Positions 286-20,441 of a stretch of DNA of 36,279 nucleotides are shown piece after piece. The notes under the pieces are model-generated. The model saw only the letters and a program-made list of their open reading frames with translations, searched no databases and was not told the DNA's origin. The translations under genes were made by a program, and so were the position numbers. Positions within the stretch are counted from its first letter, which is position 1, and every line of letters begins with the position of its first letter. Source of the DNA: Rhodospirillaceae bacterium (GTDB lineage Bacteria; Pseudomonadota; Alphaproteobacteria; UBA828); NCBI GenBank assembly GCA_018666805.1, contig JABIXB010000034.1, positions 1 through 36,279 on the forward strand. Direction: 5' to 3'.

Positions 286-612
286 TTAAGCGTTGAGATT
301 GTCCTGAAGCGCCAAAAGCGTTGCCAGATCCACTTCGACAAAGCGCACGGCGCGAGCGCCGCTCGTGTCAACCCGGGTGACCTGGCCGGTAAATTCGCTG
401 CTGGGGCCGCCTGGCGGCTCCATTTGTCCGGTAAAGCGGTCCTTCGGCTCAAGCCCTTCAAGACCATGGGCGATAAAGCCGCCGACCGACCAATTCAGGG
501 TCTCGATTTCGCGTTCGCCAACAACCAGTTTCAACTGAACATCCTCCACCCGAGTGCCGTTTCGCCGGTTACACCAGCGCCAACGGCATCTCAATAATCC
601 TAAAACCCTCAA
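286..612 (-). CDS. small PilZ-domain protein (unit 1)
   Basis: This 108-residue protein is essentially one PilZ domain. It has the c-di-GMP-binding RRxxxR motif (RRNGTR, about residues 16-21) and the second motif NxSxxG as NWSVGG (about 39-44). PilZ proteins act as c-di-GMP receptors, often by docking onto a partner. No signal peptide or membrane segment is seen. The start is a TTG at 612. It is preferred because AAAGGGA lies seven bases upstream and because the neighbouring paralogue at 785-1111 has exactly the same length. An ATG nearby (about 590) is in a different frame and stops quickly. The gene lies directly downstream of a c-di-GMP-I riboswitch, so the ligand probably controls both its synthesis and its activity. 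The molecular partner is unknown. Confidence 0.85.
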   Translation of the reverse strand: MRVLGLLRCRWRWCNRRNGTRVEDVQLKLVVGEREIETLNWSVGGFIAHGLEGLEPKDRFTGQMEPPGGPSSEFTGQVTRVDTSGARAVRFVEVDLATLLALQDNLNA

Positions 613-617
613 TTTCT

Positions 618-704
618 TGTCCCTTTCGGTAGCCCCGCTACCCAGAGACTGGGCCGGTGGCTTTGCGCCCCGCCGTTACCGGCGGTTTGCCGTTTCGATG
701 AACA
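618..704 (-). promoter_or_regulatory. c-di-GMP-I (GEMM) riboswitch of PilZ unit 1
   Basis: Read on the minus strand, the element holds the GEMM-I conserved blocks in order. GGCAAACC (684-691) is followed by a perfect six-pair P2 stem CCGCCG/CGGCGG capped by a GTAA (GNRA) tetraloop. Then come GCGCAAAGCC and CCGGCC, and a P3 receptor strand GGGTAGCGGGGCTACCGA. By alignment with the Vibrio Vc2 aptamer, the base matching G20 is G, which favours c-di-GMP over cGAMP. The conserved ACCGA runs directly into AAGGGA, the ribosome-binding site of the PilZ gene at 612. An outer pairing TGTTC (700-704) with GGACA (618-622) would cover part of that site. Confidence 0.93.
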
Positions 705-712
705 GTGTTCAC

Positions 713-756
713 ATCATGACAAATTAAAGGGCCAGTGCAAAGTGATGTTCGTCACA
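713..756 (-). promoter_or_regulatory. CRP-like site and -10 of PilZ unit 1
   Basis: Positions 741-756 read AGTGA-N6-TCACA on the plus strand. This matches the CRP consensus TGTGA-N6-TCACA at 9 of 10 fixed positions. On the minus strand a -10-like CATGAT lies at 713-718, centred 33 bp from the centre of the dyad (748.5). That is close to the geometry of a class II CRP promoter (activator at -41.5). The predicted start near 706 coincides with the 5' edge of the riboswitch. No good -35 is present, as expected for an activator-dependent promoter. Confidence 0.6.
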
Positions 757-784
757 AACTGTCAAATATTAGCTGCTTATGGCC

Positions 785-1111
785 TTAAAAGAGCGGCGCT
801 ATGGTGCTGAAATTCAAGGCTGCCCGCCCTTGATCGTCAATTCTGACAATTTCCGAGATAATTGCGCCCATGGGGACGCCGTTTTGTGATTCCAACGTTC
901 CCGCGACCGTATCGCCGACTTTCCAATGCTCAAGCGCATCGACCAGGCAGCCGCCGGCTGACCAATTGATGGTCGCCAATTCGCGGTGATTAACAACGAG
1001 ATGAAGCTGCTGATTTGGCGCAAATTCACGTCTATGGCGGCGCCGTTCGTCATGATGGGGCGTTGAATCGTCGCTTTGGGTGGAAGATTCGTTATTTGTC
1101 TGAGCCAGCAT
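785..1111 (-). CDS. small PilZ-domain protein (unit 2)
   Basis: This is a second 108-residue PilZ protein, paralogous to the one at 286-612. A short polar N-terminus (residues 1-20) precedes RRRHRR (23-28), which satisfies the RRxxxR c-di-GMP-binding motif. NWSAGG (49-54) supplies NxSxxG. A beta-barrel-like stretch continues to the end. The ATG at 1111 has AAAGGA six bases upstream, inside the 3' end of a riboswitch. The two PilZ proteins share the core pattern LVV-x3-REx-TxNWSxGG but differ elsewhere, so the duplication is not recent. It lies between mnmA and the first PilZ unit and has its own promoter region. The function beyond c-di-GMP binding is unknown. Confidence 0.9.
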   Translation of the reverse strand: MLAQTNNESSTQSDDSTPHHDERRRHRREFAPNQQLHLVVNHRELATINWSAGGCLVDALEHWKVGDTVAGTLESQNGVPMGAIISEIVRIDDQGRAALNFSTIAPLF

Positions 1112-1115
1112 GGCT

Positions 1116-1204
1116 ATTCCTTTCGGTGGCCCCGCTACCCGCTTTGACCCGGGCCGGAAGCTTTGCGTCCCGCCGTTACCAGCGGTTTGCCATTATCGTA
1201 GAAT
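1116..1204 (-). promoter_or_regulatory. c-di-GMP-I (GEMM) riboswitch of PilZ unit 2
   Basis: This is the second GEMM-I aptamer on the minus strand. It has GGCAAACC (1184-1191), a P2 stem CCGCTG/CGGCGG closed by a GTAA tetraloop, GGGACGCAAAGC, TCCGGCC, and finally GGGTAGCGGGGCCACCGA. The G20-equivalent is G. The last conserved bases run into AAAGGA, the ribosome-binding site of the ATG at 1111. ATTC (1201-1204) can pair with GAAT (1116-1119), the equivalent of the outer helix in unit 1 but with different bases. The GGCAAACC block sits exactly 500 bp from its counterpart in unit 1. Confidence 0.94.
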
Positions 1205-1213
1205 TCAAGCGTA

Positions 1214-1256
1214 ATTCTGCCGCGATTCGGCAAATCGCGCTGTGACCCGTGTCACA
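1214..1256 (-). promoter_or_regulatory. CRP-like site and -10 of PilZ unit 2
   Basis: Positions 1241-1256 are a perfect TGTGA-N6-TCACA dyad, the CRP/FNR-family cAMP receptor consensus. On the minus strand CAGAAT (1214-1219) is a -10-like hexamer centred 32 bp from the dyad centre (1248.5), the class II CRP arrangement. The predicted start near 1207 is just upstream of the aptamer. The dyad lies only 20 bp past the mnmA stop codon, so this promoter would restart transcription inside the gap after the sulfur operon. Confidence 0.7.
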
Positions 1257-16602: not shown

Positions 16603-17406
16603 TTGCGCACGCTCGAACCCGGCGGCGAGGTGGAGGTCGACTATCAGGGCGGCGGCTTTCCCGAAGTGATCGCCGGCGACGGTAACATGCGCACCGGCGA
16701 GCAGGGAACGTTCGGCAAGGTGGCGCTTCGGAACGACAGCAAGAAGCGCCTCACCCTGCTGATCGAGCACTGCGAATGGCTCGATAATATTCTCACCGCC
16801 GACAAGGTCTCGACCCTGCAGGCCTTTCGCGAGCTCTGCGGCAATCAGGTGCTGCGCGCCGGCGACGATGCGGCGATCGAACATATCACTCTGGTGTTTT
16901 CCGACTTGCGCGGCTCAACGGCGCTCTATAACCGCATCGGCGATGGGCCCGCCTATCATTTGGTGCGCGAGCATTTTGCCTTCATGGCGGCCGAAGTGCG
17001 CGACCATAACGGCGCCATCATCAAGACCATCGGCGATGCCGTGATGGCGGCTTTCGGCGAGCCGGGCGATACCGTCGCCGCCATGCTCTCGATCCAGAGC
17101 CACATCGCCACATTTAACGATGCGCAGGAAGAGGAAGAGACGCTGGTGATCAAGCTTGGCGGCCATGCCGGGCGGACGATTGCCGTCAATCTAAATGGCC
17201 GGCTGGATTATTTCGGCACCACGGTAAACCTCGCGGCGCGGCTGCAACAGGAGAGCGAAGGCGGCGATATTGTCCTATCCGACGCGCTCGCCGGCGACCC
17301 AGCGGTAAAAGAGATCACCGAAAACCAACCGCTCGAAACCGGCGCCGCCGAGATGAAGGGCTTTGACGAGCCCATCGCCTATATTCGCCTGCGCTCTCCC
17401 AGTTAA
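16603..17406 (+). CDS. C-terminal class III adenylate/guanylate cyclase domain, downstream of the in-frame stop
   Basis: This segment is in the same frame as the 317-residue gene before it. Residues 1-85 complete the DUF5939-like region. The rest is a cyclase catalytic domain with the metal-binding aspartates in FSDLRGS and KTIGDAVMAAFG, the purine-binding lysine in KTIGD, and DYFGTTVNLAARLQ supplying the Asn-Arg transition-state pair. All expected catalytic residues seem intact, so function was kept until recently or is still kept. Separate translation would need a weak start (TTG 16603 or ATG 16687) with no good ribosome-binding site. It would normally be the C-terminus of a roughly 600-residue enzyme. 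Confidence 0.8.
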   Translation: MRTLEPGGEVEVDYQGGGFPEVIAGDGNMRTGEQGTFGKVALRNDSKKRLTLLIEHCEWLDNILTADKVSTLQAFRELCGNQVLRAGDDAAIEHITLVFSDLRGSTALYNRIGDGPAYHLVREHFAFMAAEVRDHNGAIIKTIGDAVMAAFGEPGDTVAAMLSIQSHIATFNDAQEEEETLVIKLGGHAGRTIAVNLNGRLDYFGTTVNLAARLQQESEGGDIVLSDALAGDPAVKEITENQPLETGAAEMKGFDEPIAYIRLRSPS

Positions 17407-18368: not shown

Positions 18369-20441
18369 ATGTCCGCCATCGAAGAAACAGGCGAACCGAC
18401 GATCCGCGAACAGATCCTGCAAAACCAGAAGATCATCGACGACCTCAACGGCAAGCTCGCGCGCAAATCCGAAGAAGTAAAAATCATTCAGCAGATCTCG
18501 ACTGAGATCGTCGCCACGCTCGAACTCGATAAAATTCTCGAAACAATTCTCGCCTCGATGGATTCGGTACTCGGCTTCGAACACTGCATGATCCTGCTCG
18601 CTGCCCCGGGCGAGGAAAATAAATTGGTGCTCACCGCCAGCCGGGGCTATACGGAATCAGGCGTTGGCGTTGAGGTGCCGTTTGGCCAGGGCGTTATCGG
18701 CGTGGTCGCCAAGAAGCGCCGCATGATGCGCATGGGCAATATCCAAACCCAACTCGCCTACCAGGCCAATGTGCGCCAGCGCATGCAGGAAACCGGCGGC
18801 GGCGATGAAGTGGCGGAGACGGTCAAACTGCCCGGCCTGGAAAAAGCGCAAAGCCAGATCGGCATTCCGCTACTGGTTCAGGACAAGCTGGTTGGCGTGT
18901 TTGCCGTCGAGAGCGAGAAAGGTAACGCCTTTGATGAATTGGATGGCATGCTGCTTTCCATCGTCGCCAATCAGGTGGCGAGCGCGATCGACAATGCCCG
19001 CCTGCATCAGCAGGAAACGGAGCGTTCGGCCGAGCTCGATAAGGCAGTGAACGAACTTTCACACCTCAACGAAACACTCGAAGCCAAGGTCGACGGGCGA
19101 ACCGCGGAATTGTCGCGCGCCTTGGAGGAAGTCAAACACGAAAAGCAATTGAGCGAAGGCTTGCTCAACCGCATGGCACCGCCGGAGGTTATCCCGGCGA
19201 TGATGGAAGATAAACTCGAGGCGGAAAAAATATCCGCCACCTTGATGTTTACCGATTTAGAGAATTTCACTGAGTTCACCGCCGGCATGGAACCGGATGA
19301 AATTTTCTCGCGCCTCAATCATTATTTCAGTTGGGCCGGCGATATCATGACGCGCTATCGCGGCTATCTGAACAAGACCAATGGCGACGGCACCATGGCG
19401 CTGTTTGGCGCGCCGAACGGCAACTCGACCCACCCGACGGACGCCGTACTGGTCGGCCTGGCACTCCAGAACGAGGTGCGCGACCACATCCCGCTCAACA
19501 TGCGCATCGGTATCAATACCGGCACCATCGCCACCGGCCTCCTCGGCCCGCAGAATAAAGGCCTCTATGATGTGCTCGGCGACGCGGTAAATACCGCGAG
19601 CCGCATGGAAGGCATCTGCCCCTCGGCCGGCGTCTGCATCAGCGGCGATACCTATGAGTTGGTGAAGCCTTATTTCGATATCGAATCACTCGGCGAGAAA
19701 GATGTGAAGGGCCTGCACATCGTCTCCTACTACAATGTTAAATCGCTGAAAGCGCTGGAAAATGATGAGCGCCGCGTCGATGCCTCAAGCCGCTTTGCCG
19801 AGCATTGCGCGGCACTGGCGGAGGAGGTCGGCGCGTTCCGGCAAAAATCCTTTGGCATGTTCGACTTCACCAGCATCCAGTCGCGCGATGTCGCCCTAGG
19901 CCACAACGAGGCAGTCGCGGCCTATGCCCTCGCCCTCTTCCGCGCGCTCAGCGAGAGCAATTCGGAGCTGCTCGGAGAACTCAGCGAGGAGACGCTGATG
20001 GCAGCGGCACTGCTGCATGACGTCGGTAAATTTAATATCGATGTAGCGCGTCTGAACGAACGCTCGCCCGGCAATCAGGAGCGTATCAAGCTCCGCGCCG
20101 ACCTGTTGGAAAATACCCTTGAGGTGTTAGAAAAGATCAACCAACAAGCGCTCGCGCCCGCTCTTCGGCATTTTTATTATTTCGAGGAAACCGGCGGCGA
20201 AAGCGGCGATGCGGATGCGCTTACTCAATTGCTCGCCGCCGCAGATATTTACGATGCGCTGACCGCGCCGAAAATTTACAAGGGCACGCCGTGGCGCATT
20301 TCCGGCGTGTTGGAGGAATTGCTACACTTACCGCATTGCGAAGGCGCGGAACGGCCGATCTTCAACAAATTCGTTGAAATCATGCGCCCCAAGGACGCCG
20401 CCATTTCGACCAGCACGAAAACAGAAGTCATGTTCCGTTAG
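18369..20441 (+). CDS. GAF - class III adenylate cyclase - degenerate HD-GYP-like protein
   Basis: A 690-residue cytoplasmic signalling enzyme with three modules. Residues 40-215 are a GAF sensor with PFGQGVIGVV, followed after a short insertion by IGIPLLVQDKLVGVFAVES. Residues 215-270 form a coiled coil. Residues 288-455 are a class III cyclase: metal aspartates Asp296 (FTDLENF) and Asp340 (NGDGTMALFG), Lys336, Asp405 and Asn408 (GDAVN), and Arg412, so it should be active and most likely makes cAMP. Residues 505-660 resemble an HD-GYP domain: His512, HDVGK (550-554), and ADIYDALTAPKIYKG (625-639). The HHE-GYP core is degenerate (RHFYYFEETGGES), so phosphodiesterase activity is doubtful. No membrane segments are seen. 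Confidence 0.9.
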   Translation: MSAIEETGEPTIREQILQNQKIIDDLNGKLARKSEEVKIIQQISTEIVATLELDKILETILASMDSVLGFEHCMILLAAPGEENKLVLTASRGYTESGVGVEVPFGQGVIGVVAKKRRMMRMGNIQTQLAYQANVRQRMQETGGGDEVAETVKLPGLEKAQSQIGIPLLVQDKLVGVFAVESEKGNAFDELDGMLLSIVANQVASAIDNARLHQQETERSAELDKAVNELSHLNETLEAKVDGRTAELSRALEEVKHEKQLSEGLLNRMAPPEVIPAMMEDKLEAEKISATLMFTDLENFTEFTAGMEPDEIFSRLNHYFSWAGDIMTRYRGYLNKTNGDGTMALFGAPNGNSTHPTDAVLVGLALQNEVRDHIPLNMRIGINTGTIATGLLGPQNKGLYDVLGDAVNTASRMEGICPSAGVCISGDTYELVKPYFDIESLGEKDVKGLHIVSYYNVKSLKALENDERRVDASSRFAEHCAALAEEVGAFRQKSFGMFDFTSIQSRDVALGHNEAVAAYALALFRALSESNSELLGELSEETLMAAALLHDVGKFNIDVARLNERSPGNQERIKLRADLLENTLEVLEKINQQALAPALRHFYYFEETGGESGDADALTQLLAAADIYDALTAPKIYKGTPWRISGVLEELLHLPHCEGAERPIFNKFVEIMRPKDAAISTSTKTEVMFR

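Follow-up and report, generated by a model that had tools for sequence, protein, structure and literature searches.

Tandem PilZ-fold genes behind CRP-type dyads and c-di-GMP-I riboswitches: a candidate two-messenger gate in Alphaproteobacteria

The window, as the whole 36,279-base stretch of marine alphaproteobacterial DNA analysed here will be called, carries two consecutive copies of a three-part unit on its minus strand. In order along that strand lie mnmA, encoding tRNA 2-thiouridylase (1276-2421; Pfam tRNA_Me_trans, 244 bits), a dyad, an aptamer, a PilZ gene, a second dyad, a second aptamer, a second PilZ gene and a tRNA (175-103). The upstream unit is made up of a CRP-type dyad, TGTGACACGGGTCACA (1241-1256), a c-di-GMP-I aptamer (1121-1200), the Shine-Dalgarno sequence AAAGGAA (1117-1123), which abuts the 3' strand of aptamer P1, and a gene for a 108-residue protein with its ATG at 1111 (785-1111). 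In the downstream unit the dyad, TGTGACGAACATCACT on the minus strand (741-756), is followed by an aptamer (624-700) and by a gene that can be read either from a TTG at 612, 12 nt past the aptamer (286-612, 108 residues), or from a TTG at 534 (286-534, 82 residues). A first-pass annotation of this DNA had proposed a duplicated unit with copies offset by 500 bp, and both the duplication and its measurements are borne out. The aptamer cores are 500 bp apart, as are the dyads; the dyad centre lies 57.5 bp from the aptamer core in both copies and each dyad stands 56 bp before its aptamer. The aptamers are strong Rfam matches, and dyads and spacing are kept in two related species (G001 and G003). 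The mnmA-PilZ-tRNA site was compared in five congeners, namely the window genome (G000) and G001 to G004, the last being MarineAlpha10_Bin2 contig PTKB01000074, with mnmA orthologues as markers of the syntenic site.

Covariance models recover both claimed aptamers on the minus strand. RF03167, the family retained in the comparison of related Rfam families, scores 64.3 bits at 624-700 and 63.6 bits at 1121-1200, in both cases above its gathering score of 59, and the general c-di-GMP-I model RF01051 scores higher still (69.6 and 65.9 bits, respectively). Core positions G12, A39 and C78 of our alignment (A4) are invariant, and we take these to be the equivalents of the Vc2 ligand contacts G20, A47 and C92. 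The contact positions are those of Vc2 and not of the G20A cGAMP variant. Assignment to the RF03167 "GGC" variant, possibly with an altered ligand, is disfavored because RF01051 scores higher and the diagnostic position is A. The canonical c-di-GMP-I class is thus preferred for both aptamers, and c-di-GMP is very probably the ligand of the RNA.

Both dyads of the first-pass annotation are present and are the sole GTGA-N6-TCAC matches in the 36,279 bases (0.28 expected). The stricter TGTGA-N6-TCACA occurs six times in the 3.9-Mb genome, against zero for the reversed control; all six sites, of which the upstream dyad is one, are apparently intergenic as judged by open frames. All five species share the downstream dyad in the form TTGTGAC-N5-TCACTTT, and dyad-to-aptamer spacing is 56 or 57 bp in each of the five intact units found in three species (G000, G001, and G003) despite divergence of the spacer. 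The spacing from the dyads to putative -10 elements would fit a placement near -41.5, as in class II CRP-dependent promoters, with start sites predicted accordingly. The proposed class II geometry holds best for the downstream unit, where a weak hexamer, CATGAT (718-713, predicted start near 706), is aligned in five species, its end 35.5-36.5 from the dyad centre. The upstream -10 (CAGAAT, 1219-1214, start near 1207) is poor and was placed by class II spacing alone. No sigma-70 consensus promoter was scored on the minus strand of the window. The units would thus resemble class II CRP-dependent promoters in having a TGTGA-N6-TCACA dyad approximately 42 bp before the predicted start and no good -35, but differ in the weak -10 of the upstream unit. 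Agreement with the strict CRP consensus would suit a protein binding cAMP or cGMP, and another member of the family is possible. A palindrome, TGAACAcTGTTCA, spans the inferred start of the downstream unit (701-713) with minor changes across the five species, including those without an aptamer, and is possibly a further operator.

What do the two genes encode? The description of both as 108-residue PilZ proteins is secure for the upstream one. This protein scores 21.7 bits against Pfam PilZ, slightly below the 22.5 cut-off, and its AlphaFold model best matches the Alg44 PilZ domain with c-di-GMP (Foldseek probability 1.00, E 1.6e-3). It combines the predicted PilZ fold with RxxxR (as RRRxxR) and [ND]xSxxG (as NWSAGG, of the form NxSxxG) motifs. 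A pattern scan of named genomes gave no close relatives of it, and a sequence-profile search gave no relatives of solved structure. The downstream protein, 36% identical to the upstream one, has no Pfam match at E 0.1, although fold prediction gives a PilZ barrel; its start is ambiguous between the 108- and 82-residue forms. The further proposal that the product binds c-di-GMP again is well motivated by the motif pair for the upstream protein only. The downstream protein has an RxxxR solely upstream of TTG 534, in the long form, and it would bind in this way only if a weakly constrained N-terminal stretch were translated; the motif is absent in G002, G003, and G004. In their predicted barrel, and in the RxxxR and [ND]xSxxG of the upstream protein, the two resemble single-domain PilZ proteins (the Alg44 PilZ domain, PA4608, and the DgrA type), but the downstream protein may lack RxxxR and both are weak or sub-threshold in Pfam.

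It is quite possible, if short of an even chance, that TTG 534 is the main start codon of the downstream gene, with the riboswitch ~90 nt upstream in a structured leader. The internal start and its Shine-Dalgarno sequence (GGAGG or GGAG-N8-TTG; GGAGG at 547-543 in the window) are conserved in all five species, in front of a PilZ body that is 68-83% identical, and in G000 and G001 the interval from the aptamer to GGAGG holds a strong hairpin. Between these two genomes the stretch 612-535 carries three synonymous and nine nonsynonymous codon changes, against 31 and 15 in the body, so that it appears to evolve like non-coding DNA under weak constraint; the 108-residue form depends on its translation. 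Conversely, TTG 612 has its own Shine-Dalgarno sequence at the aptamer edge, its distance from the aptamer matches that at other alphaproteobacterial loci, and neither species shows an indel or an interruption of the frame. Initiation at 534 would mean that this start is not controlled through the P1-adjacent Shine-Dalgarno sequence, and is compatible with the explanation preferred below for the upstream unit.

The genome encodes seven PilZ paralogues of this family. One is preceded by a decayed c-di-GMP-I-like element (L207:1090-1185, G000:C226, minus strand) and adjoins two further PilZ paralogues. The element scores 35 bits with a model of the genus and has lost the core GGCAAACC; it has no Rfam match. 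With seven paralogues, one of them behind a decayed aptamer, the aptamer-PilZ unit has evidently been duplicated on more than one occasion and is prone to decay.

The explanation that we consider probable, though well short of certain, is that the window holds two paralogous single-gene transcription units, which arose by tandem duplication before the split of the five sampled congeners. The activator would be a CRP-family protein, most likely cAMP-CRP, bound to a dyad placed for class II activation, and the transcript would start a few nucleotides (~6) before a canonical c-di-GMP-I aptamer. The Shine-Dalgarno sequence directly follows the 3' strand of P1, so that ligand-stabilized P1 would compete with the ribosome. 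The upstream product would be a free-standing PilZ protein for which c-di-GMP binding is expected, and the downstream product a PilZ barrel with an optional c-di-GMP arm. Of this picture, the anatomy of the units, their synteny, the conservation of dyad and spacing, the intact aptamers and, from structure prediction, the PilZ fold are established here; the effectors, the start sites, the sign of regulation and the feedback are predictions. If true, the arrangement would be a compact gate in which the CRP signal sets mRNA synthesis, c-di-GMP sets translation and the protein made is once more a c-di-GMP sensor.

The likeliest mode of action is translational control, given that the Shine-Dalgarno sequence abuts P1 and that the stretch before the upstream start codon could hardly accommodate a terminator. 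Start codons lie 10-12 nt after the aptamers in both units, and a Shine-Dalgarno sequence against P1 with a nearby start codon is found in 43 of the 46 alphaproteobacterial loci tested. An intrinsic terminator was considered as expression platform and rejected, as none was found on the minus strand of the window. The leader can pair with the Shine-Dalgarno sequence in every intact unit of the genus, by which c-di-GMP would repress. Across the class such pairing does not exceed permutation (p = 0.19), and sequestration by an extended P1 is accordingly discarded as a class-wide rule and retained only as a local proposal. Vc2 was reported to activate a reporter (PMC4545359). At this locus, repression by c-di-GMP is tentatively considered more probable than activation.

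Both messengers are plausibly available in the organism, since it encodes two CRP homologues (C80 and C134), 26 class III cyclase domains and nine GGDEF domains. Two of the cyclase domains lie inside the window on the plus strand (16876-17289 and 19233-19733). Each CRP homologue has the pocket motif FGE(L/M)S...RSAN and an S/TRETVxR recognition helix, and cAMP is very probably its ligand. With two CRP-type paralogues and 26 cyclase domains in the genome, a CRP/FNR-family protein might instead read the dyads for another signal, for example cGMP, and the gate would then not be one of cAMP and c-di-GMP. Responses to cGMP are known among alphaproteobacterial CRP homologues, as in CgrA of Rhodospirillum centenum. 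We regard this as unlikely: neither paralogue departs from cAMP-CRP in the phosphate-binding-cassette motif or in the typical recognition residues, and the dyads fit the CRP consensus. A further exact CRP dyad (L034:1501-1516, G000:C80:1812-1827) lies ~45 bp past the stop of one CRP homologue, ahead of a gene further along the same strand; the contig also encodes a class III cyclase.

Comparison of the five congeners, all metagenome-assembled, qualifies the view that the unit has been kept through the duplication: all five species have the CRP-type site and the body of the downstream PilZ gene, but in three the downstream aptamer is missing or disrupted, and in two there is neither upstream aptamer nor upstream gene. 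The mnmA tree is ((G000,G001),(G003,(G002,G004))). G001 has the full tandem and, as in G000, every core position is kept in both aptamers (64-70 bits, with 61.5 for the upstream aptamer of G001). G003 has the full upstream unit, while its downstream aptamer is cut after the first 14 nt and a terminator-like hairpin stands in its place. In G002 and G004 the upstream aptamer and gene are absent and a dyad still follows mnmA, exact in G004 and with one half-site change in G002; their downstream unit keeps the dyad, -10 region, and PilZ body without the aptamer. Each of the three aptamer-less states is found in an assembly of its own. Dyad and spacing are thus kept wherever an aptamer is intact outside the window genome (G001 and G003). 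From this pattern of losses, the ancestor probably had a tandem of full units, and the CRP-type site has outlived the riboswitch. The species that lack the downstream aptamer also lack RxxxR in the downstream protein, which suggests joint loss of the RNA and protein means of sensing c-di-GMP at this gene.

Such losses could also mean that the selected part is a CRP-controlled PilZ gene, its aptamers being inherited passengers that are disappearing and contribute little in this species. The downstream aptamer is gone from G002, G004, and G003, dyads remain in G002 and G004 where the upstream gene and aptamer do not, and the element before a PilZ paralogue elsewhere in the genome is likewise decayed, with a broken core. 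This too is quite unlikely in our judgment: the aptamers of G000 and G001 retain all core positions while the spacers around them diverge, and the upstream copy of G003 is intact. With both aptamers, one or none, the five congeners amount to a deletion series made by nature, which separates promoter and riboswitch contributions, and the logic is therefore testable through comparison of native alleles.

How unusual is this arrangement? The statement that no such system had been described went too far, since gbpA of Vibrio cholerae has a CRP promoter in front of a c-di-GMP riboswitch (PMC4545359). In that gene the site of cAMP-CRP binding lies upstream of the riboswitch, Vc1, although c-di-GMP acted independently of Vc1 (PMC4545359). 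The systems are alike in having cAMP-CRP upstream of a c-di-GMP-I leader, with two messengers on one gene, but the gbpA product is a colonization factor and not a c-di-GMP receptor, and gbpA is present in a single copy (PMC4545359). As members of the c-di-GMP-I (GEMM) riboswitches (RF01051/RF03167), the two aptamers score above the gathering thresholds and keep the conserved core intact. They differ in that stand-alone PilZ genes follow; a recognizable PilZ gene came after the aptamer at none of the other alphaproteobacterial loci examined. A literature search that covered few subscription journals, and is thus weak evidence of absence, turned up no account of a PilZ gene controlled by a c-di-GMP riboswitch. 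What is new is that the product is a PilZ protein, that the units stand in tandem and were lost stepwise, and that CRP-type dyads precede seven of 48 other alphaproteobacterial c-di-GMP-I aptamers.

At these seven loci, all in other alphaproteobacterial families, a GTGA-N6-TCAC dyad lies 59-128 bp before the aptamer, where shuffles predict 0.05 such cases and the remaining sequence of these loci 0.3. The pattern had been set in advance, and the 160-nt range was our own choice. They fall into three families (f36, f106, and f127) and are non-independent within each (L145, L146, L152, L160, L170, L177, and L189). That the window dyads arose by chance near two ordinary riboswitches, short as their half-sites are, is highly improbable: the only two GTGA-N6-TCAC sites of the window share one offset, this offset is conserved in relatives, and class-wide, where dyads are enriched, other spacers or patterns give at most one match in the same regions. 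The enrichment in other families suggests that single genes come under joint control of the two messengers more often than the lone described Vibrio case implies. More tentatively, and with the balance at present against so broad a claim, CRP-type promoters feeding c-di-GMP riboswitches might be a recurrent dual-messenger device that arose in several alphaproteobacterial families. In this genus it would drive a duplicated c-di-GMP receptor family and close a feedback loop, the RNA and protein sensors having been lost together while the CRP input was kept.

Two minor observations concern other aptamers of this class. Many alphaproteobacterial c-di-GMP-I aptamers (those of L144, L146, L150, L151, L153-L155, L157, L171, L175, L178, and L182) lie in front of a gene for a ParA/MinD-like ATPase (MRV.V.ASQKGGSGKTT), which suggests that c-di-GMP governs a positioning protein. 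At L021:3028-3106 (G000:C88:7027-7105, minus strand) and L015:2976-3054, a c-di-GMP-I aptamer without a CRP dyad precedes ATGCATGTAATT, a tiny open frame and a GC-rich hairpin that carries a T run. This is apparently an orphan riboswitch conserved in two species, possibly belonging to a small RNA or a leader peptide.
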